Notes under the pieces: model-generated
Databases searched by the model: none
Told to the model about the DNA's origin: nothing
The model's input: only the letters and a program-made list of their open reading frames with translations
DNA from: an uncultured Eubacteriales bacterium
Lineage (GTDB): Bacteria > Bacillota > Clostridia > Saccharofermentanales > UBA5734
Reading direction: 5' to 3'
Length of the DNA stretch: 64,000 bases
NCBI GenBank assembly: GCA_903835065.1
Contig: CAILLO010000028.1
Coordinates: 42,471 to 106,470 of the forward strand
Position numbers and translations under genes: made by a program
Part shown: piece by piece, positions 7,667 through 48,371 of the stretch
Layout: every line of letters begins with the position of its first letter
How positions within the stretch are numbered: the first letter of the stretch is position 1

Positions 7667-8848
7667 CTAGATCTTCTCGAAGACGACCGCCGTGCCCATG
7701 CCGCCGCCGATGCACAGCGTGGCGAGGCCGCGGTGCGCTCCGAGGCGCTGCATTCCATAGAGGAGGGTCGTCGCGATGCGGGCGCCGGACGCGCCGATGG
7801 GGTGGCCCAGGGCGATCGCGCCGCCGGAGACGTTGGTCTTCGCGGGGTCGAGTCCGAGCTCCTGCGCCACGGCCAGCGACTGGACGGCGAAGGCTTCGTT
7901 GGCCTCGACGAGGTCGAGGTCCGCGACGGTCAGGCCGGCCTGCGCGAGCGCCTTCCGGGTCGCGGGGATGGGCCCCAGGCCCATGACCTTCGGGTCGACG
8001 CCGGCGGAGCCCAGCCCGAGGATGCGGGCCATCGGCTTGACGCCCAGGCGGTCCGCCGCCTCGCGGGACATGAGCACGAGCATGGCGGCGCCGTCGTTGA
8101 TGCCGGACGCGTTGCCGGCCGTGACCGTGCCGTCCTTCTGGAAGGCGGGACGGAGCTTGGCGAGCGTCTCGGGCGTCGTACCCGCGCGCGGGAACTCGTC
8201 GACCGAGAACAGGACGGGGTCGCCCTTCCGCTGGGGAATCGGGACCGGGACGATCTCGGCGGCGAACCGGCCGTCCGCGAGGGCGGCCTCGGCGCGCTGC
8301 TGGCTCTGCGCCGCGAAGGCGTCCTGCGCCTCGCGTCCGATGCCCTTCTCCGCGGCGATGTTCTCCGCCGTGACGCCCATGTGGACGTCGTTGAACGCGT
8401 CCCACAGGCCGTCGGAGATCATGGTGTCGACCAGCTGGTCGTGGCCCATCTTGTAGCCGGTGCGCGCCTTCTTCAGGGCGTATGCAGCGTTGCTCATGCT
8501 CTCCGCGCCGCCGGCGAGGACCACGTCGGCCTCCCCGGAGCGGATCATCTGCGCGGCCAGCGAGATCGCTCGCAGGCCGGAGCCGCAGACCATGTTGAGG
8601 GTCATCGCCGGGACCTCGACCGGCAGACCGGCCTTCAGGGCGACCTGGCGGGCCACGTTCTGGCCCTGCCCGGCGTTGAGGACGTTGCCGACGATCACCT
8701 CGGAGACGTCGGTCGGGGCGATGCCGGCCCGCTTCAGGGCCTCCTTCGCGGCGAAGGCGCCGAGTTCCGCGGCGGAGAATCCCGAGAGGGACCCGCCGAA
8801 GCTGCCGATCGGGGTACGGACCGCCGAGGCGACCACTACTTCCGTCAT
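7667..8848 (-). CDS. Acetyl-CoA C-acetyltransferase (thiolase)
   Basis: [49 protein letters not shown] active-site motifs. Confidence 0.96.
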
Positions 8849-8864
8849 GTCGTTACGCTCTCCT

Positions 8865-9830
8865 TCATTCCTGCGGGTTTCCATCTTCGTCGGGTCCGAA
8901 GCCGCCGTACTTGTACTTGCGGGTCGGGACGGGGTTCATGTCGTCTTCGTCGATCTCCGCGACGCAGCGGGCCATCGAGCCGTCGCCGAGGTACCACCGG
9001 AGCGGGAAGCAGAAGAAGCGGAAGCGCTTGCCGGCGACCTTGTCCAGGTCGCCGCCGAGGTTCTCGACGCCGACGATGCCGTGGCCGAGCATCAGCTTGT
9101 GGCAGGGCTCCCAGGTGCCCCAGACGCCGATCTTCTCGAGATCGCCGAACTTCGCGTCGTAGGCGGCCTGGCCGTGCAGCCGGATGTACTCGAACTTGTC
9201 GAATTCGGCGTAGGCCTCTTCGCCGAACTGTTCGACGTATTCCTCGGTGATCGGCTTGCCGGAGGCGCCGATCAGGTTCATGCGGGTCATGCCGTTGTTG
9301 CCCATGGCGGTGTGCAGGGGGTGGTCCAGGGCCTGCATGTCCATCGCGACTGCCTTGACCTTGTGCTCGACGAACCAGCGACCGGCCTCGACGCCGGTGC
9401 CGCAGGAATAGTGGTAGTACTCCTTGGAGTCGTCGAACTGGCGGTGCATGCCGGTGCGCAGGCAGACGATCATTCCTTCGAGCTCGCTGGGCTTGATGCC
9501 GACCTTCGCGCACGCCGCCTCGAGGTGCTTCGGGCCGATCAGGCCCCAGCGCTCGACTTCGATCGGCAGGCAGACCGCGTCGCCCGTATAGGCGTCGACG
9601 GGCATTTCATGCGTGTAGCGGGCGCGCTTCCCGTTGAACTCGTTTTCCATGACGTGGCGGGGCGCGTCGCAGTGCGTGCCGGTGTGCATCGTGCAGGTGA
9701 TCTTCTGCGTCAGCACGCCGCCCTTGGCCATCGTGTGCGCATTGTCGATGATGGGCTTGTCGAAGTACGGCCAGCGCGGAATCTCGGCGCTGAAGGGGTG
9801 GGTCAGGTCGACGAAGACTTTCTTGCCCAT
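8865..9830 (-). CDS. Cyclase-family metal-dependent hydrolase; candidate dihydrophloroglucinol cyclohydrolase
   Basis: [12 protein letters not shown] matches the HxGTHxDxPxH metal motif of the kynurenine formamidase/cyclase family; substrate inferred from operon. Confidence 0.88.
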
Positions 9831-9857: not shown

Positions 9858-10790
9858 CTACTTGCCGTACAGCATCTGGATAAGGTGCGCGTTCAGCTTG
9901 CGGCGGGATGCGTCCTTCTGCTCGTCGGTCCAGGTCTGGAAGCCCTTTCCGCTCTTGAACCCGAGGTCGCCCGCGGCGACCTTCTCCCGCAGCGCCGGGG
10001 ACGCCTTCTTCGCGTCCTCGAGGTACGGGAACAGGTAGTCGTGGATCGACAGCGCGAGGTCGGCGCCGACCATGTCGATGTTCTCCATGGGGCCGAGGAC
10101 CGGCAGGCGCAGCCCGAAGCTCGAGCGCACCGCCTCGTCCACGGTCGCGGCGTCGGCGATGCCGTTCTCGACGATCGAGACGGCCTCCCGCCACAGCGCG
10201 TGCTGCAGGCGGTTGGCGACGAAACCCGGCACGTCCTTGTTGACGCGGATCGGGCGCTTCCCCGCTTTCGCGAGGACCGCGAGGGTCGCGTCCATCGTGG
10301 CGTCCGATGTGCCCTCGGCCTTCACGACCTCGACCAGCGGGATCAGGGTCGGCGGGTTCCAGAAGTGCGTGCCGACGAGGCGGTCCTTCTTGACCGTCTT
10401 CTCGGCGATCGCGGTGATGCTCATGACCGAGGTGTTGGTCGCGAGGATCGCGTCCGGGCGGACCAGCGGCTCGAGGTCGCGGAAGAAGTCCTGCTTGAGC
10501 TGCAGGTTCTCGGGGATGCATTCGACGACCAGGTCCGCGTCGCCGACCGCGGCCGACAGGTCGGCGGTCGGGTGGATGCGCGACACGATCGCGTCGGCCT
10601 CCGCCTGCGGATAGACGCCCTTCTCCACGAACAGCGAGAGGCTCGACCGCACGCGGTCCAGCATCTGCGGGCCGCTCACGAAGGCGTCGAAGATGCGGAC
10701 CTCGAGGTCGCCGCACGCCGCGAACACCTGCGCGATGCCGCAGCCCATGAGGCCGCCGCCCGCGACGGCGACGATCCGGATGTCCGCCAC
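9858..10790 (-). CDS. 3-hydroxyacyl-CoA dehydrogenase superfamily; candidate 3-hydroxy-5-oxohexanoate dehydrogenase
   Basis: GTG start overlapping SDR end; VAVAGGGLMGCGIAQVFAACG Rossmann motif; THFWNPPTLIPLVEVV instead of the usual HFFNPAPVM of 3-hydroxybutyryl-CoA dehydrogenases. Confidence 0.87.
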   Translation of the reverse strand: MADIRIVAVAGGGLMGCGIAQVFAACGDLEVRIFDAFVSGPQMLDRVRSSLSLFVEKGVYPQAEADAIVSRIHPTADLSAAVGDADLVVECIPENLQLKQDFFRDLEPLVRPDAILATNTSVMSITAIAEKTVKKDRLVGTHFWNPPTLIPLVEVVKAEGTSDATMDATLAVLAKAGKRPIRVNKDVPGFVANRLQHALWREAVSIVENGIADAATVDEAVRSSFGLRLPVLGPMENIDMVGADLALSIHDYLFPYLEDAKKASPALREKVAAGDLGFKSGKGFQTWTDEQKDASRRKLNAHLIQMLYGK

Positions 10791-10791
10791 G

Positions 10792-11580
10792 TCAGTTGCC
10801 CCAGTATCCGCCGTCGGCCGCATAGTTGCCGGCGGTCAGGAAGGCGGCCGCGTCGGACGCGAGGAACGACGCGATGCCCACGAAGTCGGACGGCTCGCCG
10901 AGACGGCCGATGGGCAGGCGCTTGAGGAAGTTCTGGTAGACGTTGTCGTTGTGGAACATCCACTCGGTCAGGTCGGAGCGGAACACGGTCGGATTGAACG
11001 TGTTCACGAGAATCCCGTACTCGCCGAGGTCGCACGCCAGCGACTGCGCCAGCAGGTCGACGGCCGCCTTGGACGTCGAGTAGCCGGTGTAGCCCTTCAT
11101 GCCGCGCTTGGAGCGCGCGGAGGAGACCAGGATGATGCGGCCCTTCGTCTTGGCGGCCACCATCTGCTTGGCGGCGTATTTGCTCATCAGGTAGGCGCCG
11201 CGGACGTTGGCGTCCATCATGGCCTGCCAGGCGTCGGTCGGCTGCTCGAGGATCGAGCCGGGCTTGCTATAGCCGTGCGCGGTCAGGAGGATGTCGAGCG
11301 AGCCGAACTTCGCGACGGTCTCCGCCACGATGCGCTCGGCGTCGGCCTCGACGGCGGGGTCGCCCACGCTGCAGGCGCACGCGATGGCTTCCGCGGCGAA
11401 CTCCGCGGCCAGTTCCTTCAGTTTGTCCTCGTGGCGGCCGGTGACCATCACCTTCACGCCCTGGTATCCGTAGCCCTTGGCGATCGTGCTGCCGAGCGCG
11501 CCGGAGCCGCCGCTGACCAGCGCCACCTTGCCGGACAGGTTGAACATGTCCTTCACGAACGAACGTTCCAGTGCGACCAT
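10792..11580 (-). CDS. Short-chain dehydrogenase/reductase; candidate phloroglucinol reductase
   Basis: NLSGKVALVSGGSGALGSTIA, catalytic GYTGYSTSKAAV; substrate inferred from operon. Confidence 0.88.
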   Translation of the reverse strand: MVALERSFVKDMFNLSGKVALVSGGSGALGSTIAKGYGYQGVKVMVTGRHEDKLKELAAEFAAEAIACACSVGDPAVEADAERIVAETVAKFGSLDILLTAHGYSKPGSILEQPTDAWQAMMDANVRGAYLMSKYAAKQMVAAKTKGRIILVSSARSKRGMKGYTGYSTSKAAVDLLAQSLACDLGEYGILVNTFNPTVFRSDLTEWMFHNDNVYQNFLKRLPIGRLGEPSDFVGIASFLASDAAAFLTAGNYAADGGYWGN

Positions 11581-11978: not shown

Positions 11979-12641
11979 TCACAGGATCGGCATGGTCTTG
12001 AGGGCCGGGGACACGGCGACGTCGGCATCGATGCCGGCGAGCGCCTCCTCCTTCGTGACGTCGGGGGCGAGCTCCACGAGCTCGAGGCCGCCGCCCTTGT
12101 GCACGCGCAGCACAGCCATGTTGGTGACGATCAGGTCGACCTTGCAGGTCGCGGTCAGGGGCAGCCGGCACGCCTTGAGGATCTTGGCCGAGCCGTCCTT
12201 GTTCACGTGCTCCATCGCGACGATCACGCGCCGCGCGCCGCACACGAGGTCCATCGCGCCGCCCATGCCCGGGACCTTCTTGCCCGGGATCATCCAGCTC
12301 GCGAGGTTGCCGGTCTGGTCCACTTCCAGCGCGCCCAGCACGGTCTCGTCGACGTGGCCTCCGCGGATCAGCCCGAACGACGTCGCGCTGTCGAAGAACA
12401 TGCCGCCCGGGAGGATCGTGACCTGGTTGCCGCCGGCGTCCGTGACGTCGAAGGTGCCGTTCTCGGGGGTCGCGGCCGGGCCCATGCCCAGCATGCCGTT
12501 CTCGGACTGCAGCTGGATGTGCACGCCGTCCGGCAGGTAGTTGGCGGCGAGCGTGGGGATGCCGATGCCGAGGTTGACGACATCGCCGTCCTTGAATTCG
12601 AGCGCGACGCGACGGGCGATGACTTCGCGGCTGTTCATCAT
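11979..12641 (-). CDS. 3-oxoacid CoA-transferase subunit B
   Basis: [34 protein letters not shown] catalytic SENG motif. Confidence 0.95.
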
Positions 12642-13303
12642 GACTCGGTACCTCCCGCCAGGACCAGAGCGTCGATCAGCGCGCCGGGGATCGTGACGTC
12701 CTCGGGGTCGATCCCGCCGACCGGCACGATCGCGTCGACTTCGGCGATCACGTAGTCGCCCGCGGAAGCCATGACGACGTTGAAGTTCTTCGCGTTGCCG
12801 CGGATGAAGAGATTCCCGGACTCGTCGGCCAGGTGCGCCTTCACGAACGAGACGTTCGCCCGCAGCGCGGTCTCCAGCAGGTACTCCCGGCCGTCGACCT
12901 CGATCTTGCGCTTGCCGTTCTCGACGATCGTGCCGACGCCGACCGGCGTGAGCACGCCGCCCAGCCCGTACCCGCCGCAGCGGATCTTCTCGGCCAGCGT
13001 GCCCTGCGGATAGAGCGTCACCCGGTCGGGGTGCTCCATGAGCATGCGGCCGGTCTCCGGGTTCGCCCCGATGTAGGAGCCGTTGATGCGCGTGACGTGG
13101 CCCGAGGCCACCAGGTCGAAGACCGCGCAATCCGACCGGCCCGTGTCGTTCGACGTCAGGGTCAGGTCCTTCTGTCCCTGTCGGATCAGCTCGCGGATCG
13201 TCTTGTCCGGCGTGCCCCCCTTGAGGAAGCCGCCGACCATGACGTGGTCGCCGTCCTTGACGTGCGCGACCGCTTGCTGAGCGTCCAGAACCTTGTTCTT
13301 CAT
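12638..13303 (-). CDS. 3-oxoacid CoA-transferase subunit A
   Basis: [24 protein letters not shown]...[30 protein letters not shown]. Confidence 0.95.
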
Positions 13304-13367
13304 CGGCGGTTCCTCCTGGGGTTCTTCATTCGGCCTTCTTCTCGGGCTTCGAGTACGTCAGGCAGGT

Positions 13368-13523
13368 CTAGTACTTCTCGAGCTCGCCGCGCACTTCGGG
13401 CATGTTCTCCGGCGGGCGAAGGGACTTCGTGTCGAGGTCCTCGGCGTGGCCGGTACACCGGGTGATGCCCTTCTCGCTGTTCGGGGAGCCGATGAGGATG
13501 CCGTCGCACGCGAGGATCTTCAT
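13368..13523 (-). CDS. Small hypothetical protein (51 aa) at the head of the CoA-transferase/phloroglucinol-like operon
   Basis: MKILACDGILIGSPNSEKGITRCTGHAEDLDTKSLRPPENMPEVRGELEKY; AAGGAAAA ribosome-binding-like site upstream; frame stays open past its TAG to 13326. Confidence 0.45.
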   Translation of the reverse strand: MKILACDGILIGSPNSEKGITRCTGHAEDLDTKSLRPPENMPEVRGELEKY

Positions 13524-13538: not shown

Positions 13539-13558
13539 GGATGGATTCCCTTCCATCC
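13539..13558 (-). promoter_or_regulatory. Perfect inverted repeat GGATGGA-N6-TCCATCC in operon leader
   Basis: 7-bp stem directly upstream of the 51-aa ORF. Confidence 0.45.
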
Positions 13559-13565
13559 TAGCAAC

Positions 13566-13622
13566 CTTTTCTGAAATCGTCACTCTTTTCTGAAACTATC
13601 CGGAGTGCAGGTTTCGAGTCAA
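13566..13622 (-). promoter_or_regulatory. Promoter with two operator-like TTTCAGAAAAG repeats
   Basis: Minus strand TTGACT (13622-13617), 16-nt spacer, GATAGT (13600-13595), then TTTCAGAAAAG at 13585-13595 and 13566-13576 (19-bp period; each contains palindrome TTTC-N-GAAA). Confidence 0.6.
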
Positions 13623-13635
13623 GTGTTGGAATCCG

Positions 13636-14115
13636 TCAGACGCGGCGCGCGTCGAGACAGCGGAGCATCGCGCCCTTCCCTTCTGTCTCGCCGGCGTGCT
13701 TCGCCAAGACGAAGCCGCGGTTCTTCTCGAGGGGGTCGTCGTTCAACGGAATCGCCGAGGAGCTGCCGCGTACGCCGAGGTCCGTCTTCTCCCACTGGTG
13801 CAGTCGGAAGGCGCTCGGCGCCTTGCCCACGGAGTCGTCCTTGTCGAACAGCGCGTGCCGGCGACGATCACGACGTAATCGTGGACGAGGACGTCCTTCT
13901 CGTCGGTCGACAGGTTCTCCACGTCCATGTTGGACAAGAACCAGTCGATCGGTCGGTCGCGCCCTCCTTGAAGCCGACCCGGCCGCGGGAGCGCAGTCCG
14001 GCATCGACGGGCTGGTTGGTGATTTCCATGAAGTCAGGGTCCCAGGATTCGGTCAACGCGAGGCCGCCGGCAGGTCGCTGTCGTCGCGGACGCAGTTCAT
14101 GATGATGCTTCTCAT
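13636..14115 (-). pseudogene. Unknown conserved-looking ORF broken by three -1 frameshifts
   Basis: Consecutive segments in three frames join into one ~160-aa product: MRSIIMNCVRDDSDLPA / LALTESWDPDFMEITNQPVDAGLRSRGRVGFKEGATD / IDWFLSNMDVENLSTDEKDVLVHDYVVIVAG / ALFDKDDSVGKAPSAFRLHQWEKTDLGVRGSSSAIPLNDDPLEKNRGFVLAKHAGETEGKGAMLRCLDARRV; 480 nt + 3 restores a multiple of three. Confidence 0.7.
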
Positions 14116-14156: not shown

Positions 14157-14732
14157 TTATCCCCGTGCCTGGGCCATGCCTTCGCGGAAGGCCTTGAGAT
14201 TGATCTCCACGGTTTCCTTCTTGACGTTCTCGGAGATCACGGTCTCCCAGTCGATGTCGGCGAGGCCCATCCCCGCGACCAGCGCGCCGAAGAGCACGAG
14301 GTTCATCGAGCGGGCGTTGCCCAGCCGCTTCGCGATGCCGGCGGCGTCGACGACGGTCGCGGCGACCTTGGACCGCAGTTCGTCGAGCACGCCCTTCGGA
14401 TAGAGCGACTTGCCGGCGAGGATCGGGGCGGACGGCAGCTCGAAGTCGTTGACGACCGCCTTGCCCTTCGGGTTCAGGTACGGCAGCCAGCGGAGGGCCT
14501 CCATCTTCTCGAAGGAGACCAGGATGTCGGCGCCGCCGATTTCGATCACGGGGGACTCGACCTTGTCGCCGTACCGGACCTGCGAGGACACGGAGCCGCC
14601 GCGCTGGCTCATCCCGTGGATCTCGCTCATCTTCACGTCGTAGCCGGCCTGCATCAGGCCTGTGGTCAGGATCTTGCTCGCGAGCAGGGTGCCCTGTCCG
14701 CCGACGCCCACCAGGAGGATGCTCCTAACCAT
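14157..14732 (-). CDS. iorB: Indolepyruvate ferredoxin oxidoreductase beta subunit
   Basis: MVRSILLVGVGGQGTLLASKILTTGLMQAGYDVKMSEIHGMSQRGGSVSSQVRYGDKV. Confidence 0.94.
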   Translation of the reverse strand: MVRSILLVGVGGQGTLLASKILTTGLMQAGYDVKMSEIHGMSQRGGSVSSQVRYGDKVESPVIEIGGADILVSFEKMEALRWLPYLNPKGKAVVNDFELPSAPILAGKSLYPKGVLDELRSKVAATVVDAAGIAKRLGNARSMNLVLFGALVAGMGLADIDWETVISENVKKETVEINLKAFREGMAQARG

Positions 14733-16518
14733 TCCTGCGTTCCTCCTTCACGATCGCGACCGGCTTGCACACCTGCAGGCACACGCCGCATCCGACGCAC
14801 TGCGCCGGGTCGATCCGCACCTTGTTCGTCGCCGCGTCGTACACCAGCGAGGAGCAGCCGGTGCGCAGGCACATCCTGCACCCGATGCAGGTCTCCTCGA
14901 TCACGCGGCACTGGGCCTTGAAGATGGTGGGAAACTCGGTCTTGTCGGCTTCGGTGAACTTCTTCAGAACGCAGGGCCAGCGGGTGATGATCACGGACGG
15001 CTCGTCGAGCGAGAACGCCCAATCGAAGGCGTTCTTCACAGCGGTCAGATCGTTGGGGTCGATCGACACGACGTGCTCGATGCCGATCGCCCGGACCAGC
15101 GCCTCGATGTCGACTACCTTCGTCGGCTTGCCCTGCAGGGTGAAGCCCGTGCCGGGGTTCTGCTGGTGGCCGGTCATGCCCGTGATCCGGTTGTCGAGGA
15201 TCACGTTGACCGTCCGGCTGCCGTTGTAGATCACGTCGAGCAGCGAGTTGAAGCCCGTGTGGAAGAACGTGGAGTCGCCCATGACGGACAGGACGCGGCG
15301 CTTGTCGTCCGGAATCATGTCGAGGACCTGCTGGAACCCGTGCCCCGAACTGATGCTCGCGCCCATGCAGACGTTGTAGTCCATCGCGTTGAACGGGTCC
15401 GAGAAGCCGAGCGTGTAGCAGCCGATGTCGCCGGCGACGATCACGTTCTTGCGCTTCCCGAGCTCGTAGAAGAAGCCTCGGTGCGGGCACCCGGCGCACA
15501 GCGACGGCGGGCGGGCCACGACGTTCTCGGCGGACGCGTCGAGGTGGGGCAGGGTCTCGCCGTACAGCGACTTGCGCAGGACGTCGGGGGTCAGCTCGCC
15601 GTACGGCGGGAAGACGTCCTTGCCGCTGCACGCGAAGCCGAGCATGCGCACGCGCTCCTCGACGATCGGGTCGTTCTCCTCGACGACGTAGATCTTCTCC
15701 ACGCCGGCGCAGAACTCGCGGATCCGCTCGTCCGGCAACGGGTTGGTGAAGCCGAGCTTCAGGTAGGAGGCCCTGTCGCCGAAGACCTCGCGGGCGAAGC
15801 GGTAGGCCGCGCCAGTCGCGACCACGCCGACCGCGCGGTCGTTCCACTCGATGTAGTTCAGCGGGGACGCGTCGGAGTACTCCAGCAGGCGGCCCATGCG
15901 GGCTTCGACCTTGACGCGCATCTTCTGAGCGAACGACGGGACGGTCATGTACTTCTGGACGTTCTTCACGAAGGGGCGGATCGGGACCTCGACGCGTCCG
16001 CCGACCTCGACGATGCCCTTGGAGTGGCAGACGCGCGTGGTCATGCGGACCAGCACGGGCGTGTCGAACTCCTCGCTGACGTCGTAGGCGACCTTCATCA
16101 TGTCGAGCGACTCCTGGCTGTCGGAGGGCTCGAGCAGCGGCACCTTGGCGAAGCGCGCGTACTGGCGGTTGTCCTGCTCGTTCTGCGAGGAGTGCTGTCC
16201 CGGCTCGTCCGCCGTGACCAGCACCATGCCGCCGTTGGTCCCGATGTAGGCCATCGTGAACAGCGGGTCCGCCGCCACGTTGACGCCGACGTGCTTCATG
16301 GCGGCCAGCGTGCGGGCGCCGGCGAAGGCACCGCCCATCGCGGCCTCGAACGCCACCTTCTCGTTGGGCGCCCATTCGGCGAGGACGTCGTCCTTGTACT
16401 CGGCGATCGTCTCGAGGATCTCGGTGCTCGGCGTCCCCGGATACGCGGAGGCGTAGCGCACCCCGGCCTCCCAGGCGCCGCGCGCCACCGCTTCGTTTCC
16501 GGTCAGAAGCATCTTCAT
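14725..16518 (-). CDS. iorA: Indolepyruvate ferredoxin oxidoreductase alpha subunit
   Basis: TPP-enzyme domains (GDIGCYTLG...MGDSTFFHTG) and C-terminal ferredoxin motifs CIGCRMCLRTGC and CVGCGVCLQVC. Confidence 0.95.
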   Translation of the reverse strand: MKMLLTGNEAVARGAWEAGVRYASAYPGTPSTEILETIAEYKDDVLAEWAPNEKVAFEAAMGGAFAGARTLAAMKHVGVNVAADPLFTMAYIGTNGGMVLVTADEPGQHSSQNEQDNRQYARFAKVPLLEPSDSQESLDMMKVAYDVSEEFDTPVLVRMTTRVCHSKGIVEVGGRVEVPIRPFVKNVQKYMTVPSFAQKMRVKVEARMGRLLEYSDASPLNYIEWNDRAVGVVATGAAYRFAREVFGDRASYLKLGFTNPLPDERIREFCAGVEKIYVVEENDPIVEERVRMLGFACSGKDVFPPYGELTPDVLRKSLYGETLPHLDASAENVVARPPSLCAGCPHRGFFYELGKRKNVIVAGDIGCYTLGFSDPFNAMDYNVCMGASISSGHGFQQVLDMIPDDKRRVLSVMGDSTFFHTGFNSLLDVIYNGSRTVNVILDNRITGMTGHQQNPGTGFTLQGKPTKVVDIEALVRAIGIEHVVSIDPNDLTAVKNAFDWAFSLDEPSVIITRWPCVLKKFTEADKTEFPTIFKAQCRVIEETCIGCRMCLRTGCSSLVYDAATNKVRIDPAQCVGCGVCLQVCKPVAIVKEERRNG

Positions 16519-17426
16519 TTCCGAACCCCCTTGTTGGCGACGAAGCAGGACATGACGATCGAGTTCATCTTGACGACGGCGTCGTCGGCGCGGGACATCA
16601 GGATGATGGGGTGCGTGGCGCCCACGATCAGCCCGCCCGCGTTGATGTTGGCGTAGTGCATCATCGACTTGCTCCAGATGTTGCCGGCCTCGACGGTCGG
16701 GAACAGGAAGACGTCGGTCTTGCCCGCGATCCGGCTCGCGATGCCCTTGTGCTTGGCGGCGTTGGCGCTGACGGCGACGTCGAGCGAGACGGGGCCCTCG
16801 ATCGTGCCGTGGAAGTCCGGGTCCGCCGTGAAGGCCTTCGCGATCTCGTCGGCCTCCACCGTCACGGGCATCTTGGGATTGACCAGCTCGTTGGCGGCCA
16901 GGATCCCGATGTAGGGGTGGTCGATGCCGAACGCCATCAGGGCGTCGATCGTGTTCCAGAGGATCTCCTTCTTCTCTTCGAGGTTCGGGCAGATGTTGAG
17001 CCCGGTGTCTGTCGCGAAGAGGAGCCGGTCGTCGCGCGGGATCTCGTAGGCGTGCAGCGTGCTGAACAGACGGCCGGTACGGAGCCCCTCCTCCTTGGCG
17101 AGCGCCGCGCGGAGGTAGAACGAGGTGTTGACGAGGCCCTTGAACAGGACCTGCGCGTCCCCCTTGCGGACCAGGAGCACGGCCTGGCGGCAGGCCTCGG
17201 CGTCGTCCGTCGCGTCGACGACGCGCATGTCGTCCGGCAGTCCGATCTTCTTCATGAGCGGCCGGATCTTCGCCTCGTCCCCGACGAGGATCGAATTCGC
17301 GAAGCCGCGGTCCAGCGCGCCCTTGACGCTCCGGAGGATCTCCTCGTCCTGGGCGACGGCCACGCTGATCGTGAGCATGGGGTGCTTCCGGACTTCGTCT
17401 TCCATCTGGCAGAAATGGCGGATCAT
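16515..17426 (-). CDS. ptb: Phosphate butyryltransferase-family enzyme
   Basis: PTA/PTB fold: ILVGDEAKIRPLM, EGPVSLDVAVSANAAKHKGI, FLFPTVEAGNIWSKSM; adjacent to buk. Confidence 0.92.
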   Translation of the reverse strand: MIRHFCQMEDEVRKHPMLTISVAVAQDEEILRSVKGALDRGFANSILVGDEAKIRPLMKKIGLPDDMRVVDATDDAEACRQAVLLVRKGDAQVLFKGLVNTSFYLRAALAKEEGLRTGRLFSTLHAYEIPRDDRLLFATDTGLNICPNLEEKKEILWNTIDALMAFGIDHPYIGILAANELVNPKMPVTVEADEIAKAFTADPDFHGTIEGPVSLDVAVSANAAKHKGIASRIAGKTDVFLFPTVEAGNIWSKSMMHYANINAGGLIVGATHPIILMSRADDAVVKMNSIVMSCFVANKGVRK

Positions 17427-17457: not shown

Positions 17458-18519
17458 TCAGTATTCCTTCGTCTTCTCTTCGCCGCGCAGGACCCGGAGG
17501 GCCCCCGCCGCGAGCGATTCCATCTCTTCCTCGCCCGGGTACAGGGCGACCGGACCGAGGAAGGAAATGCGTTCCGTGATATCGCGGACCAGGGATTCCG
17601 AGCGGGCGAGCCCGCCCGTCAGGGCGATCCGGTCGATCCTTCCCCGGAGAACGGTCGCCATGGCGCCGACTTCCTTGGCGGTCTGGTAGGCCATCACCTC
17701 GAGGACCAGCGCGGCCAGCGCGTCGCCGGCGTCGGCACGGGCCTTCGCCTCGCGCGCGTCCCGCGTGCCGAGGTAGGCGAACATGCCGCCTTCTCCGGCG
17801 ACCCGCTTCTGCATCTCCTTCTGCGAGTACTTCCCGGAGTAGCAGAGTTTCGCGAGGGCCTGGGAGGGAAGGGAGCCGCACCGGTCGGGCGAGAACGGAC
17901 CTTCCTCTGCCGCGTCGTTGACGTCGACCATGCGGCCGTGGCGGTGCGCCGTCACGGAGATCCCGGTGCCGAGGTGCACGACGATCATATCGACCTCGTC
18001 GTAGCGCTTCCCCATATCGGTCGCGGCACGGCGCGCGACGGCCTTGCAGTTGAGAGCGTGCGAGCGGCTCAGGCGCGGCAGGTCGGGCATGCCGGACAGG
18101 CGCGCGACGGGTTCGAACTCGTCGACGACCACCGGGTCGACGACGTAGGCCGGCACGCCGGCTTCGGCGGCCAAGGCGGACGCGAGCTGGGCCCCGAGGT
18201 TGGAGGCGTGGAGGCCGAACCGGGCGGTGCGGACGTCCTCGAGCATCGCCTCGTCGACGAGGTAGGTGCCGCCGGCGACGGGTTTCAGCAGCCCGCCGCG
18301 GCCGACGACCGCGGAGAGGGACGCGACGGCGACGCCGGCTTCGCGCAGGGCGCGCTCGACGAGGGAGCGGCGGTAAGGGAGCTGGTCCTGCAGGCCGTCG
18401 GACGGCGCGAGGTCGTCCCCCAGATGCTCGATCGTCCGTTTCAGGACGACCGACTCGTCGTCGAAGACGGCGATTTTGGTAGAGGTGGCACCGGGGTTGA
18501 TGGCGAGCACTCGATACAT
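17458..18519 (-). CDS. buk: Butyrate kinase
   Basis: MYRVLAINPGATSTKIAVFDDESVVLKRTIEH...VGRGGLLKPVAGGTYLVDEAML...VVHLGTGISVTAHRHGRMVDVNDA. Confidence 0.95.
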   Translation of the reverse strand: MYRVLAINPGATSTKIAVFDDESVVLKRTIEHLGDDLAPSDGLQDQLPYRRSLVERALREAGVAVASLSAVVGRGGLLKPVAGGTYLVDEAMLEDVRTARFGLHASNLGAQLASALAAEAGVPAYVVDPVVVDEFEPVARLSGMPDLPRLSRSHALNCKAVARRAATDMGKRYDEVDMIVVHLGTGISVTAHRHGRMVDVNDAAEEGPFSPDRCGSLPSQALAKLCYSGKYSQKEMQKRVAGEGGMFAYLGTRDAREAKARADAGDALAALVLEVMAYQTAKEVGAMATVLRGRIDRIALTGGLARSESLVRDITERISFLGPVALYPGEEEMESLAAGALRVLRGEEKTKEY

Positions 18520-18564
18520 GCGTCCTCCTCGGAGCGGAATGGCGTGGAAGGGCTCTATCCGTTC

Positions 18565-18593
18565 AGCATAACCGTCGAGGGGGGGTGTGTAAA
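18565..18593 (-). promoter_or_regulatory. Promoter of buk-ptb-iorAB unit
   Basis: Minus strand TTTACA (18593-18588), 17-nt spacer, TATGCT (18570-18565). Confidence 0.55.
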
Positions 18594-18673
18594 ATACCCA
18601 ATTGGCGATGGCATAGAGTTGACGCACTGTCCGGGGCAGCTGACGATGGGGCGACGCGCCGCCCGTCCGCGGA

Positions 18674-19963
18674 CTACGCCAGGTGGAATGCGACGTCGAT
18701 GTCGCGGATCTCCTGGTCGGCGATGTGCACGATGCGACCGAGACCGGTCGACGCGAGGATCGAGCGGGCGGTGAACTCGGCGACCTCGAGACGGTCGAAG
18801 GCATTCAGCAGGCTGCTTCCCGTCACGATCACGCAGTCGTTCTCGCACAGCAGGACAGGGTGGCGCGCCGACAGGCGATCGGCCGTGCCCGCGGGGTCGA
18901 GGAAGCTCGCGCCGAACGGGACGCGGACCGCCTCGCGCAGCAGGATGTAGCTCTCGGGGATCGTGCGGGCGTCGAAGCCGGCGTCGGTCACGAGGAAGGC
19001 CATCATGTGCGGCGGGTGCGCGACGAGGACCGACTGGACGTCGGGGTGCCGCGCGTAGATCTCCTCGTGGAGCCGCGCGGAGCGGCTGGGCTTCTTGCCC
19101 GCCTCCTTGTGCCCTTCGCGGACCCGCACGAGGTCCTCGACGTCGAGGTACATCCGGTCGAGACCGAACGGCGTGATCACGAAGGAGCCGTCCGCGAGCC
19201 GCGCCGAGTAGGTGCCCTGGGTGCTCCTGAACAGGTTCTGCTCGTAGGAGCGGTGGATCAGCTTCACGAGGTCGCGGCGGACCGCGTTCTCCTCGCTCGA
19301 GTGGGAGACGGGCGTGAAGTCGGGCAGGTCGGCGAAGTTCATCTTGTCGGAGTTCTCGATCTGCTCGTCGGACAGCGTGCGGACCCGGCCGACCTTGAGG
19401 GCGTTGATCTCGAGCAGCGCGCAGGACTCGAGGGTCTCGAAGGCCATGAAGGCCTGGAAGATGTCCTTCGCGCCGATCACGACGCCGTGGTTCTCGAGCA
19501 CGACGACGTTGCAGCCCCGGTCGAATTCCGCGGCGATGTTCCCGCCGAGCAGGCGGCTGCCGGGCAGCGCGTAGGGGGCCAGCGCGACCTCCCCGCACAC
19601 GAGCTTCATGTTGGGGATCAGGTTGACCTCGGGCAGGCGGCGCACGATGCTGAAGGCCACGAGGGAGGGCGAATGCGCGTGCAGCACGGCCTTGATGTCG
19701 GGGCGGCGTTCGTAGACGGAGCGGTGGAACGGGTGCTCGGAGGAGGGCTTGTGCCGGCCGACGAAGGTGCCGTCGGGCAGGATGCGCATGATGTCGTCGC
19801 GCGTCAGCAAGCCCTTGTCGATGCCGCTCGGCGTGATCCAGATATCACCGTTCTCGTCCCGGATCGACAGATTGCCGCCGGACGTGGTCGTCATCCCGCG
19901 GTAGTAGATGCGGTGCATCATCATGACCAGCTGGTCGGCCGGGTGCAGCAGTTCGAATCTCAT
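18674..19963 (-). CDS. Two-domain class II aldolase/adducin protein
   Basis: Domain 1: SGGNLSIRD, PSSEHPFH, VLHAHSP, ENHGVVIGA. Domain 2 starts near EENAVRRDLVKLIHRSYEQNLF and repeats the fold with altered metal site. Confidence 0.88.
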   Translation of the reverse strand: MRFELLHPADQLVMMMHRIYYRGMTTTSGGNLSIRDENGDIWITPSGIDKGLLTRDDIMRILPDGTFVGRHKPSSEHPFHRSVYERRPDIKAVLHAHSPSLVAFSIVRRLPEVNLIPNMKLVCGEVALAPYALPGSRLLGGNIAAEFDRGCNVVVLENHGVVIGAKDIFQAFMAFETLESCALLEINALKVGRVRTLSDEQIENSDKMNFADLPDFTPVSHSSEENAVRRDLVKLIHRSYEQNLFRSTQGTYSARLADGSFVITPFGLDRMYLDVEDLVRVREGHKEAGKKPSRSARLHEEIYARHPDVQSVLVAHPPHMMAFLVTDAGFDARTIPESYILLREAVRVPFGASFLDPAGTADRLSARHPVLLCENDCVIVTGSSLLNAFDRLEVAEFTARSILASTGLGRIVHIADQEIRDIDVAFHLA

Positions 19964-20014
19964 GGCGGGTCCTCCCCTTCGCTTCCCATCGTACAACGGC
20001 CGCGCGGAGGCGCG

Positions 20015-20836
20015 TCAGCGGATCCGGTCGGGGTCGTACACGAGGTTGCCGAGCCCGCCGTCGGCGCGGCGACCGGTCCGGCCCATCGCCTTCGCGACCG
20101 GGTGCACCTGCCCCATGAATTCGAACGGGTAGTCGTCCGTGCGCCCGGCCAGCAGGTCGTCGCAGACGTCGATGCAGCTCTCGAGGAGGGCCTTGGGGAG
20201 CGCGCCGAGGATGTGCGACAGCAGCGCCTCGTCGTAGAGCGCGTCGTAGCCGCGCAGTCCGACGAGCGTCGCGCGGTAGTCGGCCACCGTCGAGCTGTCC
20301 GAGTCGAACAGGAATACGAACGGGTTGCAGCCGTCTCCGAAGAGCAGCTTGCGGTCCTCTCGGAACAGGATGCCGGTCATTCCCTGCGTATGGCCCGGCA
20401 GGGCGACCGCCTCGAGCGTCGTGCCGCCGAGGTCGAACACCGCGCCGTGCACGAGCGGGCGCCAGTCGACCGTATGCTCCGGCGCGAGGTCGGCGTCGCC
20501 CAGGCGGTCGACGGCGTCGCCCAGGAAGATCCGCGCGTAGTCCTTCGTGAAGGCGCGCGAGACGTGGCGGTCTACGAGGTCGCGGTCGGCGTCCGCGAGG
20601 TACGCGGATCCGAACCAGGAGACACCGCCCGCGTGGTCGGCATGCCCGTGCGTCACGAGCACGGTCAGGGGCAGCGACGTCAGCGTCGAGACGAAGGCCG
20701 CGAGGTCGCCGATTCCGGTGCCGGTGTCGACGAGGGCGGCGCGGTCGCGCCCCTCCGCGAGATACATGTGGACGTTGGTGACGTCGGTGATCCGGCGCAG
20801 CGAATCCGTGACGCGTTCGACCTTGAAGAATTCCAT
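20015..20836 (-). CDS. Metallo-beta-lactamase fold hydrolase
   Basis: VTHGHADHAGGVSWF (HxHxDH) and LPGHTQGMTGILFREDRKLLFGDGC. Confidence 0.95.
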   Translation of the reverse strand: MEFFKVERVTDSLRRITDVTNVHMYLAEGRDRAALVDTGTGIGDLAAFVSTLTSLPLTVLVTHGHADHAGGVSWFGSAYLADADRDLVDRHVSRAFTKDYARIFLGDAVDRLGDADLAPEHTVDWRPLVHGAVFDLGGTTLEAVALPGHTQGMTGILFREDRKLLFGDGCNPFVFLFDSDSSTVADYRATLVGLRGYDALYDEALLSHILGALPKALLESCIDVCDDLLAGRTDDYPFEFMGQVHPVAKAMGRTGRRADGGLGNLVYDPDRIR

Positions 20837-20920
20837 GGCGGCTCCTCCTCGAATCGGATATGCGGAACATCCAGTCCATCGTACCGCTCTTCGGCGCCCG
20901 CGTCACCGGGTAACGCGGAA

Positions 20921-20950
20921 GGACCCCCGGAGCGTCGGCTCCGGAGGTCC
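20921..20950 (-). terminator. Hairpin downstream of xylA, probable weak terminator
   Basis: GGACctCCGGAGCC-gac-GctCCGGgggTCC with short TTCC tail on the minus strand. Confidence 0.5.
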
Positions 20951-21019
20951 ATGCAGGGATGCAGGGCGATGGGGCGGCGCTTCGGCGGGATGAACCGCGA
21001 TCCGCGCCAGCGCCCTCCC

Positions 21020-22339
21020 CTACCCTTCGGTCAGGTAGGCGTTGAGCAGCGACTCGAGCCACTCCTGGCGGCCGGAGACGTTGCGCACCTGGTCGTGTTC
21101 GAGCGCGTAGGCCTCGAGCTCCTTGAAGCCGACCCTGCCGTCGAGGATCTCCTTGCCGATGCCCTTCGTCCAGCTGTCGTAGCGCTTCGCCACGAAGGCG
21201 TCGAGCTTCCCGTCCTGCTGGATGCGGTACGCCGTGCGCAGGCCCTTCGCGAAGGCGTCCATGCCGGCGATGTGGCCGAGAAAGAGGTCGACGGGCTCGA
21301 ACGAGCCGCGGCGCACCTTGGCGTCGAAGTTGAGGCCGCCCTTCTTGAATCCGCCGTCCTTGAGGACCTCGAGCATCGCGAGCGTGGTGTCGTAGAGGTT
21401 GGTCGGGAACTGGTCCGTGTCCCAGCCGAGCATCGGGTCGCCCTGGTTGGCGTCGATGCTGCCGAGCATGCCGTTGAGGCGGGCGACGGCCAGGTCGTGC
21501 TGGAAGGTGTGGGCGGCAAGCGTCGCGTGGTTCGCTTCGATGTTGAGCTTGAAGTACTTGTCGAGGCCGTACTTCGTCAGGAACCCGACGACCGTGGCGG
21601 CGTCGAAATCGTACTGGTGCTTGGTGGGTTCCTTGGGCTTGGGCTCGATCAGGAACTGCCCGGTGAAGCCGATCTCCTTGGCATAGTCGACGGCCAAGCG
21701 CAGGAAGCGCGCCAGGTTGTCGAGTTCGAGCCCCATGTCGGTGTTGAGCAACGTCTCGTAGCCCTCGCGGCCACCCCAGAAGACATAGTTCTGGCCGCCG
21801 AGCTCCTTCGTCACTTCCATCGCCTTCTTGACCTGGGCGGCGGCGAATGCGAAGACGTCGGCGTTGGGGGAGGTCGAGGCGCCGTGGACGAAGCGCGGGT
21901 GGCTGAAGGCGTTGGTCGTGCCCCAGAGGAGCTTGACGTCGCTGTCCTTCATGAGGTCCTTGGTGTAGCGGACGATCGCGTCGAGGTTGCAGTTGGTCTG
22001 GGACAAGGTGTCGGCTTCCGGCGCGATGTCGCGGTCGTGGAAGCAGAAGAACGGCGCGCCGAGCTTGCCGCACAGTTCGAAGTTGGCCTCCATCTTGGAC
22101 TTCGCGAGGTCGAGCGGGTCGGTGACGTCGTGCCAGGGGCGGATCGCGGTGCCGCGGCCGAACGGGTCGGACCCTTCCGCCTGGTACGTGTGCCAGAAGG
22201 CCACGGCGAAGCGGAGGTGCTCCCGCATCGTCTTGCCGCCGATCTTCTCATCGGCCTTGTAGAACCGGAAGGCGAGAGGGTTGTCGGTCTTCGGGCCCTC
22301 GTACGGGATCTTCGGGACATCGGGGAAATACGTGCGCAT
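21020..22339 (-). CDS. xylA: Xylose isomerase
   Basis: [25 protein letters not shown]-like start, [61 protein letters not shown]. Confidence 0.97.
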
Positions 22340-38146: not shown

Positions 38147-38845
38147 TCACCGTCCCGTGACGGCGGCGGCGCGAAGCGCCTTCAGGGCGGCCACCGGATC
38201 GGCCGCGGCGAAGACCGAGTTGCCCGCCACGATCGCGTCCACACCGGCCGCGACGACCTCGCGCGCGTTCTTCACGGAGATGCCGCCGTCGATCTCGATG
38301 TAGGCCGATATGCCACGGCGCTCCATCATCCGGTGCAGGGCGGCGACCTTTTCGGTGACGGCCGGGATGTACTGCTGCCCGCCGAATCCGGGGTTGACGC
38401 TCATGAGCAGGACGAGGTCCACGTCGGGCAGGATCTCCTCCACGGCCGAGAGGGGCGTCGCCGGGTTCAGGGAGACGCCGGCGCGCATGCCGAGCGCATG
38501 GATGCTCTGCACGACTCGGTGGAGATGCACGCATGCCTCGACGTGGACCGTCAGCAGGTCGGCGCCGGCTTCCGCGAAGGCCTCGACGAAACGGCCGGGA
38601 TCGGCGACCATCAGGTGCACGTCGAGCGGCAGCGCCGTCCGCCTGCGCAGCGCCTTCACGACGGGCATGCCGATCGTGATGTTGGGGACGAACTGTCCGT
38701 CCATCACGTCCACGTGGATCCAGTCCGCGTCGTGCGACACGCGGTCGACCTCGGCTCCGAGGTCGGCGAAGTCGGCCGAAAGGATCGAGGGAGCCAGGAC
38801 CACGTGTCCGGCGGGAAGTTCGGAGCGGGGGCGGATCGCGGCCAT
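38147..38845 (-). CDS. rpe: Ribulose-phosphate 3-epimerase
   Basis: LAPSILSADFADLGAEVDRV...WIHVDVMDGQFVPNITIG...LVLLMSVNPGFGGQQYIP. Confidence 0.97.
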   Translation of the reverse strand: MAAIRPRSELPAGHVVLAPSILSADFADLGAEVDRVSHDADWIHVDVMDGQFVPNITIGMPVVKALRRRTALPLDVHLMVADPGRFVEAFAEAGADLLTVHVEACVHLHRVVQSIHALGMRAGVSLNPATPLSAVEEILPDVDLVLLMSVNPGFGGQQYIPAVTEKVAALHRMMERRGISAYIEIDGGISVKNAREVVAAGVDAIVAGNSVFAAADPVAALKALRAAAVTGR

Positions 38846-38850
38846 GGGGG

Positions 38851-39807
38851 TCACCTCCTGGATCTTGCGCCCGACGAGGGCGCGGGTCGGTCGTAGGAGT
38901 GGATCAGGTCGACGGCCCGGCGGAAGGCGCGGTACCGTTCGAGTCGTCCGGGGTCCACGGCGCCGTCCGCGAGGCGTGCGTCGATCGCGCAGTCCTTCTC
39001 GCCGATGTGGCGGCACCCCGTGAAGCGGCATTCCCCCTCGATCGCCGCGATCTCGGGAAACCCTTCCAGTACGCCTTGGGCATCGATGCCGGCGTCGGAC
39101 AGCTCCAGCTGGCTGAAACCCGGCGTGTCGGCCAGGAATCCGCCGTTCGGCAGCGGAAACAGTTCGGCGTGGCGGGTCGTGTGCCGGCCGCGGCCGATGC
39201 GGGCGCTCACGTCGCCCGTCGCCATGCGGTCGGAACCCAGCAGGTGGTTCAGCAGCGTCGACTTGCCGACGCCCGACTGACCGGCGAAGGCGACCGTCTT
39301 GTCCTTCAGGAGGTCCAGGAGGTCCTGCGGCGGCGTTCCCGAGGGGAATGCGAAGGTCCAGGTCGGGAAGCCCGCGGCCCGGTAGATCCGGGCGATTTCG
39401 TCCGACCGCTCCTGTCCGAGGTCGCCCTTGCCGATGCAGAGCACCGCGTCGATGCCCGACGCGGCGGCGATGCAGAGCAGCTTGTCGACGAGCGGGAGGT
39501 CGGGTTCGGGCGCGGCCGCCGAGACGACGATCACCAGGAGGTCCAGGTTCGCCATCGCGGGGCGCACGAGCTGGTTGCGCCGGGCGCCGATCGCGTCGAT
39601 CGTGCACGGGACGTCGGGGTCGCCCGACAGGCCCAGCGTCACCCGGTCCCCGGGGAGGGGCGAGTGACCCTCATTGCGGAGGATTCCGCGCGGCTTGGCG
39701 AAGCGCAGGCCTTCGGAAGCGCAGGACACGAGGTACTTGCCGCCGATGCCGCGGAGGATGACGCCCTCGAGCGCCAGGTCTCCGACGACGTCCGCGCGGT
39801 CGGTCAC
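38851..39807 (-). CDS. rsgA: Ribosome small subunit-dependent GTPase A
   Basis: GTG start overlapping kinase stop; VAFAGQSGVGKSTLLNHLLG, GRHTTRHAELF, DTPGFSQLEL, CRFTGCRHIGEKDCAI. Confidence 0.97.
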   Translation of the reverse strand: MTDRADVVGDLALEGVILRGIGGKYLVSCASEGLRFAKPRGILRNEGHSPLPGDRVTLGLSGDPDVPCTIDAIGARRNQLVRPAMANLDLLVIVVSAAAPEPDLPLVDKLLCIAAASGIDAVLCIGKGDLGQERSDEIARIYRAAGFPTWTFAFPSGTPPQDLLDLLKDKTVAFAGQSGVGKSTLLNHLLGSDRMATGDVSARIGRGRHTTRHAELFPLPNGGFLADTPGFSQLELSDAGIDAQGVLEGFPEIAAIEGECRFTGCRHIGEKDCAIDARLADGAVDPGRLERYRAFRRAVDLIHSYDRPAPSSGARSRR

Positions 39808-41642
39808 GGCGTCGTCACTGCAGACGTCGGCAAAGGCGTGGGCGCGGCGGTCGGCGCCGGCGTCTCGGTGGGGGCCGGAGTCGGCGAGAGCGTCGGAGCG
39901 GCGGTCGGCGTCAACGACGTGAAGTAGTCGGCCTGCGTGCCGAACGTGATGCTGACGGAGGTGTTCGCGTCGACCTGGGTGCCCTCGACGGGCAGCACGT
40001 AGACGACGTACTGCTGGTCCGCGGGCAGGCCGACCTCCATGACGGTCGTCAGGCCCAGCGACAGGTTCAGATTCGTCAGGGCCGCGAGGGCGTCGGCTCG
40101 CTTCAAGCCGACCAGCTTGGGAATGGCGACCTTGGTCAGACCGTTGCTGACGTAGACGGTCACCGTACCGCCGACTGCGACATCCTCGCCGGGGCCCGGC
40201 ACGGTCTTGATCACATGGTCCTTCTCGATGTCGGCGCTCATCTCGGTCACGATGTCGATCGTGAGGCCGAGCGTCTGGGTCAGCTCGAGCTCGACGAGAT
40301 TCGCGGTCTGTCCGGTATAATCGCTGAGCTTCAACGTGTCCTTGCCGCTGCTGACCGTCAGCACGATCGTGGAGGCGCCGCCGCGCTTGAGGCGCATGCC
40401 GGCCGAAATCGTCTGCGAGACGACGATGTTGGTCTTGACCGTGTCGGATTGGACGTACTTCAGTTCGTACGTGATCTCGCCCGCGTCGAGCGTCGCCTTC
40501 ACGGCGGCGATGTCCGAGCCGACGTAGTTCTCCACGAGGAAGTCGCCGGAGGTGGTCGGGGTCAGCACGCCGAGGATCCAGTTGTAGCCTCGGTAGCCGC
40601 CGTAGGCCAGACCGGCCAGCAGGACGAGGACGGCGAGGAGCACGAGCGTCACGTCGCGACTGCGGCTGCGGCGTCGGGACGTGATGTTCGATTCGATGTC
40701 GCGGAGGCGGGCGAAGTTGGACTCGTTCCGCATCGGGGCCATCACGGTGGTGTTGCCGCCGAGGTCGGAGCCGCCCTCGACAACGCCGTAGACGCCGTGG
40801 GGGTCGATCATCAGCCCGTCGAGTTCGTCGACCAGCGCGCGCACGTCGGAGTAGCGGTTCTCGGGGTTCTTCTGGATGCACTTGAGGACGATGTTCTCGA
40901 GGCCGGCGGGGATGTCGCGCTCGATCGACGTCGGGAGCGCCGGCGCATCCTGGATGTGCTTGATCGCGATCGAGACCGGGGAATCGCCGTCGAAGGGTAC
41001 CTTGCCGGTCAGCATCTCATAGAGCAGGATCCCGAGCGAGTAGATGTCGGATTTCTCGCCGACGATCGTGCCGCGGGCCTGCTCGGGCGAGAAGTAGTGG
41101 ACGGAGCCGAGCGCGGCGCCGCCGGTCACGGTGATCGTGTTCGCGGTCGCGGCGCGGGCGATGCCGAAGTCGGCGACCTTCGCCGTCATCTCCTTCGTGA
41201 TCAGGATGTTGTGCGGCTTGATGTCGCGGTGGATGATCCCGTTGCGGTGCGCGTGGTCGAGCGCGAGCCCGATCTGGATCGCGAGCGGCACGGCGGTCTC
41301 CCACGGGATCCTGCCCCGCTGCTGGATCAGCTGCTTGAGCGTCACGCCGTCGACGTACTCCATGACGATATAGCGCATCTCGTCATGCTGTCCGACATCC
41401 AGTACCTTCACGATGTTCTGGTGGGAAAGGCTCGAGGCGGCCTGCGCCTCGGTGTCGAAGCGGCGGATGAAGTCCGCGTCGCTCGTCAGCTCCGAGCGCA
41501 GGATCTTGACCGCGACCTGCCGTCCGTTCTCCTGCAGGTCCTCGGCGAGATATACGACGGCCATGCCGCCCTTGCCGATCTGGCGGACGATCCTGTAACG
41601 TTCGCCCAGGGTCATTCCAATCGGGGTCCCGGTCTCGTTCAT
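39804..41642 (-). CDS. prkC: PASTA-domain Ser/Thr protein kinase
   Basis: YRIVRQIGKGGMAVVYLAEDL, IIHRDIKPHNILITKEMTAKVADFGIARA, TM segment, PASTA repeats, P/T-rich C-tail. Confidence 0.97.
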   Translation of the reverse strand: MNETGTPIGMTLGERYRIVRQIGKGGMAVVYLAEDLQENGRQVAVKILRSELTSDADFIRRFDTEAQAASSLSHQNIVKVLDVGQHDEMRYIVMEYVDGVTLKQLIQQRGRIPWETAVPLAIQIGLALDHAHRNGIIHRDIKPHNILITKEMTAKVADFGIARAATANTITVTGGAALGSVHYFSPEQARGTIVGEKSDIYSLGILLYEMLTGKVPFDGDSPVSIAIKHIQDAPALPTSIERDIPAGLENIVLKCIQKNPENRYSDVRALVDELDGLMIDPHGVYGVVEGGSDLGGNTTVMAPMRNESNFARLRDIESNITSRRRSRSRDVTLVLLAVLVLLAGLAYGGYRGYNWILGVLTPTTSGDFLVENYVGSDIAAVKATLDAGEITYELKYVQSDTVKTNIVVSQTISAGMRLKRGGASTIVLTVSSGKDTLKLSDYTGQTANLVELELTQTLGLTIDIVTEMSADIEKDHVIKTVPGPGEDVAVGGTVTVYVSNGLTKVAIPKLVGLKRADALAALTNLNLSLGLTTVMEVGLPADQQYVVYVLPVEGTQVDANTSVSITFGTQADYFTSLTPTAAPTLSPTPAPTETPAPTAAPTPLPTSAVTTP

Positions 41643-41665
41643 TCCTGCTCCTCCAGCCATGTTCC

Positions 41666-42400
41666 CTAGAGATAGATCGCGACGACGGTGACGTTGTCCT
41701 CGCCCCCGCTGCGGTTCGCCAGTTCCACGAGCCGCTGCGCCGCCGCCTCGGGAGTCCGCTCCCTGCGGAGCACCGTCCGGATGTCTTCTTCGTCCGCTTC
41801 ATGGTGCAGGCCATCCGTGCACAGAAGGAAGCGGTCCCCCTTGCCTACGGCGACCGTGAAGCATTCCGGCGTCATGTATTCGGGCACGCCGAGCGCCCGG
41901 GTCAGGACGTTGCGCTTGGGGTGCGTGCGCACATCGTCGGGGTGCAGCGTGCCGGCGTCGATCAGCTCCTGCACGAGCGTATGGTCCACGGTGATGCGCA
42001 TCAGCGCCGGCCCGCGCAGGAGATACGCCCGCGAGTCGCCGACGTGCGCGACGACGACGGCGTCGCGCATCAAGACGGCCAGGGTCAGCGTCGTCCCCAT
42101 GCCGCGGTTCTCTTCGCTCTCGAGGGAACCGAGATAGACCTTCACGTTGGCCTTCTCGACGATCTCCTTCAGCAGGGCGGCGACCTCTTCCGGGTCATCC
42201 TGGCCGTCGAGGGACTCCTCCAGCCTCCGGGACACGTACTCGGCGGCGATCCGGCTCGCGAGCTCGCCCTTGCGGTGCCCGCCCATCCCGTCGGCGACGA
42301 GGAACGCGCACGGCAGGCGCTCGCCGTCCACGACGACGGCGAAACTGTCCTCGTTGTTGGTGCGTATGAGCCCCCTGTCGGTCGCCGTCCCGTATCTCAA
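41666..42400 (-). CDS. PP2C-family Ser/Thr phosphatase
   Basis: TTG start; TDRGLIRTNNEDSF, LVADGMGGHRKGELAS, GDSRAYLLR, CTDGLHHEADEE, SGGEDNVTVVAIYL. Confidence 0.96.
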   Translation of the reverse strand: MRYGTATDRGLIRTNNEDSFAVVVDGERLPCAFLVADGMGGHRKGELASRIAAEYVSRRLEESLDGQDDPEEVAALLKEIVEKANVKVYLGSLESEENRGMGTTLTLAVLMRDAVVVAHVGDSRAYLLRGPALMRITVDHTLVQELIDAGTLHPDDVRTHPKRNVLTRALGVPEYMTPECFTVAVGKGDRFLLCTDGLHHEADEEDIRTVLRRERTPEAAAQRLVELANRSGGEDNVTVVAIYL

Positions 42401-44861: not shown

Positions 44862-44866
44862 CGGCG

Positions 44867-45598: not shown

Positions 45599-45608
45599 GT
45601 CGCGCCTC

Positions 45609-48367: not shown

Positions 48368-48371
48368 CGCC

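Follow-up and report, generated by a model that had tools for sequence, protein, structure and literature searches.

What coding region once stood on the minus strand between positions 14115 and 13636 of the stretch analysed here, a window of 64,000 nucleotides from an uncultured Eubacteriales bacterium, and does it belong with the genes around it? The original prediction had described a single gene of unknown family, destroyed by exactly three -1 frameshifts, with three segments in successive frames and the ending LRCLDARRV. This layout is confirmed on the minus strand, where protein-like segments abut near 14065, ~13955 and 13857, the last of them closing with ...LRCLDARRV and a stop at 13636. 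GC at codon position 3 is 0.85-0.94 per segment, in a single frame only. In a codon log-odds model trained on the neighbouring genes, the segments reach +0.45 to +0.88 bits/codon in that frame (intact neighbouring genes, 0.42-1.14) and -0.9 to -2.1 in the others, so the coding signal is real and not a product of chance. All relic pieces share the codon usage of the neighbouring genes; such near-native usage together with few stops, which is unusual for old pseudogenes, implies that the decay must be recent, as had been supposed.

The family libraries were blank for the repaired protein whose database search had been suggested: Pfam and NCBIfam gave no match to the read-through of 14115-13636, its pieces being too short. 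The same read-through led, in a scan of 84,980 species genomes, to two loci, L002 in a Holophagaceae metagenome-assembled genome (MAG) and L003 in a Desulfobacteraceae MAG, and to two separate genes, since the N-terminal part of the read-through matches one L003 gene and its middle-to-C-terminal part another. Rfam yielded no structured RNA, and no terminator was found between the relic and the promoter-like element of Table 1.

Table 1. Features of the locus and its neighbours, in window coordinates
Feature	Coordinates	Strand	Remarks
Thiolase-like protein	7667-8884		Beyond Cyclase-family gene; named by sequence
Cyclase family, probable dihydrophloroglucinol cyclohydrolase (DPGC)	8865..9830	-	PF04199; neighbourhood as in PMC10470551
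3-Hydroxyacyl-CoA-dehydrogenase-like (3HCDH), probable 3-hydroxy-5-oxohexanoate dehydrogenase	9858..10823	-	PF02737, PF00725
SDR, probable phloroglucinol reductase (PGR)	10792..11580	-	PF13561; neighbourhood as in PMC10470551
CoA-transferase subunit B (CtfB)	Within ORF ending 11979	-	Downstream of ctfA
CoA-transferase subunit A (ctfA), intact	12638..13303	-	PF01144; syntenic in L030, L031, L032
Probable flavone-reductase (FLR) relic	13326..13523	-	TAG at 13370-13368; in ctfA leader, after promoter-like element
Promoter/operator-like element	13551..13595	-	Two TTTCAGAAA-type repeats, then GCTAGGATGGAA
Hydrolase-like relic, piece 2	13636..13857	-	HALFDKDD...FRLHQWEKTDLGVRGSSSAI..., degenerate tail, stop; family C-terminal ~40 codons absent
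Hydrolase-like relic, piece 1b	13857..13922	-	VENLSTDEKDVLVHDYVVIVAG; hydrolase profile positions 95-118
Hydrolase-like relic, piece 1a	13923..13958	-	RPIDWFLSNMD; hydrolase profile positions 35-45
Chalcone-isomerase relic, piece 2	13961..14066	-	GLALTESWDPDFMEITNQP...FKEG; ~62 family codons missing before
Chalcone-isomerase relic, piece 1	14056..14115	-	Start codon and upstream Shine-Dalgarno-like GAGAGGAG, then MRSIIMNCVRDDSDLPAA
IorB-type 2-oxoacid:ferredoxin oxidoreductase beta subunit, intact	14157..14732	-	PF01558; L050 homologue
IorA-type alpha subunit, intact	14725..16518	-	PF02775, PF01855; L050 homologue
Phosphate acyltransferase (PTB/PTA), intact	16515..17426	-	PF01515; L050 homologue
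Acyl (butyrate-type) kinase (BUK)	17458..18804	-	PF00871; L050 homologue; true start probably further downstream than listed ORF start

Two gene relics and the gaps between their pieces

The family that the original prediction could not name resolves into two: chalcone isomerase (PF18232) for the first ~150 nt (14115 to ~13961), and a short relative of the DAPG/phloretin hydrolases (PF18089-like) for the other ~320 nt (13958 to 13636). Piece 1 of the first relic is identical at 19 of 24 positions to residues 3-26 of L003:9882-10706, the Desulfobacteraceae chalcone-isomerase-family protein, with MRSIIMNCVRDDSDLPAA unchanged over the 18 residues 7-24, and piece 2 (GLALTESWDPDFMEITNQP...) matches the chalcone isomerase (CHI) profile and residues 89-123 of that protein (18/35 identical). 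Their gap-tolerant alignment scores 163.7, a value reached by 0/500 shuffles (maximum 69.2). The comparator itself carries PF18232, the chalcone isomerase N-terminal domain, at 99.6 bits and matches the E. ramulus chalcone isomerase 3ZPH at E 2e-61. The relic is assigned to the L003 branch because it aligns without significance to the Eubacterium-type enzymes of L010, L011 and L050; its closest relative thus sits in a MAG labelled Desulfobacteraceae, which is no close relative. Chalcone isomerase has a catalytic His33 (PMC9694015), whose equivalent we placed by matching the L003 protein to 3ZPH, and the region around it (family residues 27-88) is absent. Since this region and a complete domain are missing, we regard the first relic as a relic and not a working member of the family; the lost enzyme would, to judge from its relatives, have acted as a chalcone isomerase.

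The second relic belongs to a separate protein of ~210 aa (L003:7758-8387, L002:7716-8369), which is matched by IDWFLSNMD, VENLSTDEKDVLVHDYVVIVAG and FRLHQWEKTDLGVRGSSSAI. Piece 2 alone matches a profile of four hydrolase homologues with 31.6 bits (E 6e-9 over all six window frames), and the whole relic, aligned with gaps to each of the four, scores 144-175 where the shuffle maxima are 76-86 (0/500 each). Cross-controls, in which each relic was compared with the other's family, were not significant. The relic is without the W.P..H segment, and its HxxxE reads H-A-G-E-T.

With the first of its intact relatives as reference, the others are 65-69% identical to it, and the two relatives that were scanned match PF18089 at E 0.0003-0.0009, just below the curated Pfam cut-off. 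Profile-profile comparison by hhalign makes them colinear with five canonical PF18089 members over 155 columns (P 4e-4), with VT..MI.W...W.P..H and HxxxE...FLP.lY as shared motifs; Foldseek, given a low-confidence model (pLDDT 55), returned PhlG 3HWP and phloretin hydrolase 5XE5 as best matches, and a search of PDB sequences with the hydrolase profile returned nothing useful. The predicted function is thus phloretin-hydrolase-like. These proteins form a short, divergent DAPG/phloretin-hydrolase-like subfamily of ~206-225 aa (L050:8747-9367, L051:8302-8979, L003:7758-8387, L002:7716-8369), and in distant bacteria its members have genes of the chalcone-isomerase type or for flavone reductase close by.

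Set against the homologues, two of the junctions are of a very different size from the three frameshifts first proposed. The one at ~14065 marks the loss of ~62 family codons inside the chalcone-isomerase gene, and that at ~13955 fuses gene 1 to gene 2, with the C-terminal ~150 codons of the former and the N-terminal ~25-35 codons of the latter gone. A further ~49 codons were lost in frame between NMD and VEN, near 13922, inside the hydrolase-like gene, whose C-terminal ~40 codons are replaced by a degenerate tail with no homologue match; a small indel is conceivable only at the junction near 13857. Restoring three single bases cannot give back an ancestral protein from which >250 codons are absent relative to intact relatives, and the three-base repair is, on this comparison, a coincidence of deletion scars.

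The downstream scrap, the promoter-like element and the intact neighbours

Closer to ctfA lies an ORF with the same coding signal as the upstream segments, which continues beyond its TAG. The best match of this scrap is FLR, KILACDGILIGSPNSEKG pairing with KMLDADGIIISSPIFVKG and ELEKY*TCLTYSKP with MIEKYKSFISPSKP. Gap-tolerant alignment to five FLRs gave scores that 0-9 of 500 shuffles reached, compared with no significance against FLR paralogues, and the FLR profile alone matches weakly (E 6 over the window). The FLR from L050 that was used in the comparison matches the Flavonifractor plautii flavone reductase 7D38 (PMC7862272) at 1e-134, and the third scrap is probably, from these alignments, a flavone reductase. 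The FMN reductase that occupies the same position upstream of ctfA in genome G008 was considered as its parent and rejected: it is a paralogue with no significant match to the scrap, and an ortholog-like copy survives elsewhere in the source genome (contig C9). Pyrrolysine read-through of the TAG was likewise rejected; no PylS was found above cut-off, and the codon is therefore taken as an ordinary stop.

The 45-bp element between scrap and relics is 36/45 (80%) identical to the ctfA leader of the congener G001 (L030), and is likely to be the promoter/operator of the phloroglucinol operon. It is conserved between the congeners, although its flanks have been deleted or have diverged on either side.

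Downstream of the relics, CtfA, CtfB, a cupin, the SDR, the 3HCDH protein and the Cyclase-family protein follow in this order, all intact. The phloroglucinol reductase, 3-hydroxy-5-oxohexanoate dehydrogenase and dihydrophloroglucinol cyclohydrolase of Clostridium scatologenes belong to these families (PMC10470551). The clustering of PGR, DPGC and hydroxyacid dehydrogenase genes here is read from Pfam families and gene order compared with that work, with orthology at family level, and the intact genes around the relics look, by sequence, like a phloroglucinol operon. The IorAB-type genes cluster with flavonoid/phloroglucinol genes in two distant lineages (window 14157-16518; L050:3396-5750), with no obvious role in the pathway. 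Adjoining the cluster at 18674-22339 are a two-domain class II aldolase (Pfam), an MBL-fold-like protein and a xylose-isomerase-like reading (the latter two named by eye), genes that possibly serve the sugar part of plant glycosides.

Elsewhere the same enzymes are found whole. In L050 (G600, same class), intact chalcone isomerase, FLR and hydrolase genes cluster with homologues of IorA, IorB, PTB and BUK, the IorB homologue adjoining the three, and in L051 (G660) an FLR, a chalcone-isomerase-like gene and a hydrolase are adjacent. In the congener G001 the iorB-ctfA spacing is only ~250 bp, against ~850 bp in the window; the relics are gone and the promoter-like element is kept. The 22 other genomes of the family yielded no chalcone isomerase, and the source genome (G000) gave neither one over cut-off nor a PF18089 hydrolase elsewhere; the pair of long FLR-like genes that it carries on contig C9 are paralogues at 34-37%. 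Searches of same-order relatives, of the remaining family members and of 194 genomes sampled around L003 gave no closer intact source; the best comparators are distant genomes, and close relatives yielded no intact copy. A second cluster on contig C9, at ~38386-49310 (L082), holds a CocE-like hydrolase, an MFS transporter, an FLR paralogue and an amidohydrolase; a cluster of this type is joined to the phloroglucinol operon in G008:C1 (L031), which suggests that an aromatic-degradation island has been rearranged.

Origin of the relics and competing explanations

Flavones are converted to phloroglucinol by flavone reductase, chalcone isomerase, enoate reductase and phloretin hydrolase, in this order (PMC10470551). 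We consider it highly probable that 14115-13636 is what remains, as a pseudogene, of the flavonoid-opening steps in a pathway from flavonoids to phloroglucinol. That the two relics correspond to two different intact families, where their deletions lie and that their codon usage is retained are all established by sequence comparison. The earlier suggestion that the locus belongs with the neighbouring phloroglucinol system is borne out; the predicted lost enzymes act between flavones and phloroglucinol. From the comparisons we infer the enzyme functions and an order of events: an ancestor would have carried a chalcone isomerase, a short phloretin-hydrolase-like enzyme and probably a flavone reductase between iorAB and ctfAB. 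Once selection on flavonoid opening was lost, one deletion after another may have taken out most of each gene, the His33 region and the hydrolase W.P..H motif among the losses, joining what was left of the first two genes and leaving the third as a TAG-interrupted scrap downstream of the promoter. The phloroglucinol genes would have stayed under selection, the back end being kept as the front end was lost, and the bacterium presumably now uses only phloroglucinol released by others. It is rather unlikely, in our judgement, that transcribed pieces retain a residual role, for example in the ctfA leader or in regulation, or that the genus is midway in a conversion from flavonoid degrader to obligate phloroglucinol cross-feeder.

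An artefact, in which chalcone isomerase, hydrolase and FLR are all intact in the cells and metagenome assembly has collapsed the region, would fit a fragmented draft of 82 contigs as well as pieces with native-like codon usage and deletions close together. We think it improbable: it needs at least three separate deletions and a TAG within 0.8 kb while ~20 kb of flanking genes are full length, and the congener G001 is independently without these genes at the same place. Sequencing indels, the cause allowed for by the original prediction, are unlikely, as the junctions coincide with large gaps against homologues and IorA, IorB, PTB, PGR and DPGC are full length against relatives. There is very little likelihood that the truncated ORFs still give rise to small functional proteins or are expressed through frameshifting, for although the start codon, the Shine-Dalgarno-like sequence and the codon usage are kept, the catalytic regions are gone (the His33 equivalent, and the W.P..H motif by which the hydrolase lines up with its canonical family), the TAG is an ordinary stop and 0/22 relatives in the family show a match. 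A single ~160-aa gene with three single-base deletions is scarcely credible, in spite of segments that abut smoothly by eye to a total of 480 nt, as its halves are two families with separate intact genes in L002, L003, L050 and L051, two of its junctions fall where tens to hundreds of codons are missing, and neither the genome scan nor 58 relatives contain an intact 160-aa homologue.

The decay of a pseudogene is in itself ordinary, but here a pathway appears to be caught losing its front half, with three stages open to comparison: an intact flavonoid cluster (G600), scarred relics (the source genome) and a clean gap in which the promoter-like element persists (G001). This suggests that lineages can lose the flavonoid-opening enzymes yet keep the phloroglucinol enzymes, and consequently a phloroglucinol operon by itself would be no sign of flavonoid degradation in metagenomes. 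A further outcome is a short, divergent subfamily of phloretin-hydrolase-like proteins that escapes standard models.

Comparison with known systems

The Eubacterium ramulus CHI (PF18232, PDB 3ZPH/4D06) is the nearest described counterpart of the first relic, which, start codon included, matches a PF18232 member over residues 7-26 and 89-123 but is without ~80% of the gene and stands nearer the L003 branch than the Eubacterium type. The intact relatives of the second relic share the core motif order with PHY/PhlG (PF18089, PDB 3HWP, 5XE5) and apparently, by the structural model, the fold, although they are short (~206-217 aa) and lack a ~70-residue N-terminal part. The downstream scrap resembles, with moderate support, the F. 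plautii FLR (PDB 7D38) in its DGI...P..EKG segment and the C-terminal EKY...SKP, whereas it keeps only ~50 codons before the interrupting TAG. The phloroglucinol cluster of C. scatologenes (PGR, DPGC, dehydrogenase and TAL) finds its parallel in the SDR, Cyclase-family, 3HCDH, thiolase-like and CoA-transferase genes that stand together and intact in the window. No gene for TAL, a beta-keto acid cleavage enzyme, was noticed there; CtfAB with a thiolase may substitute for it, and the flavonoid front end, in contrast, has decayed.
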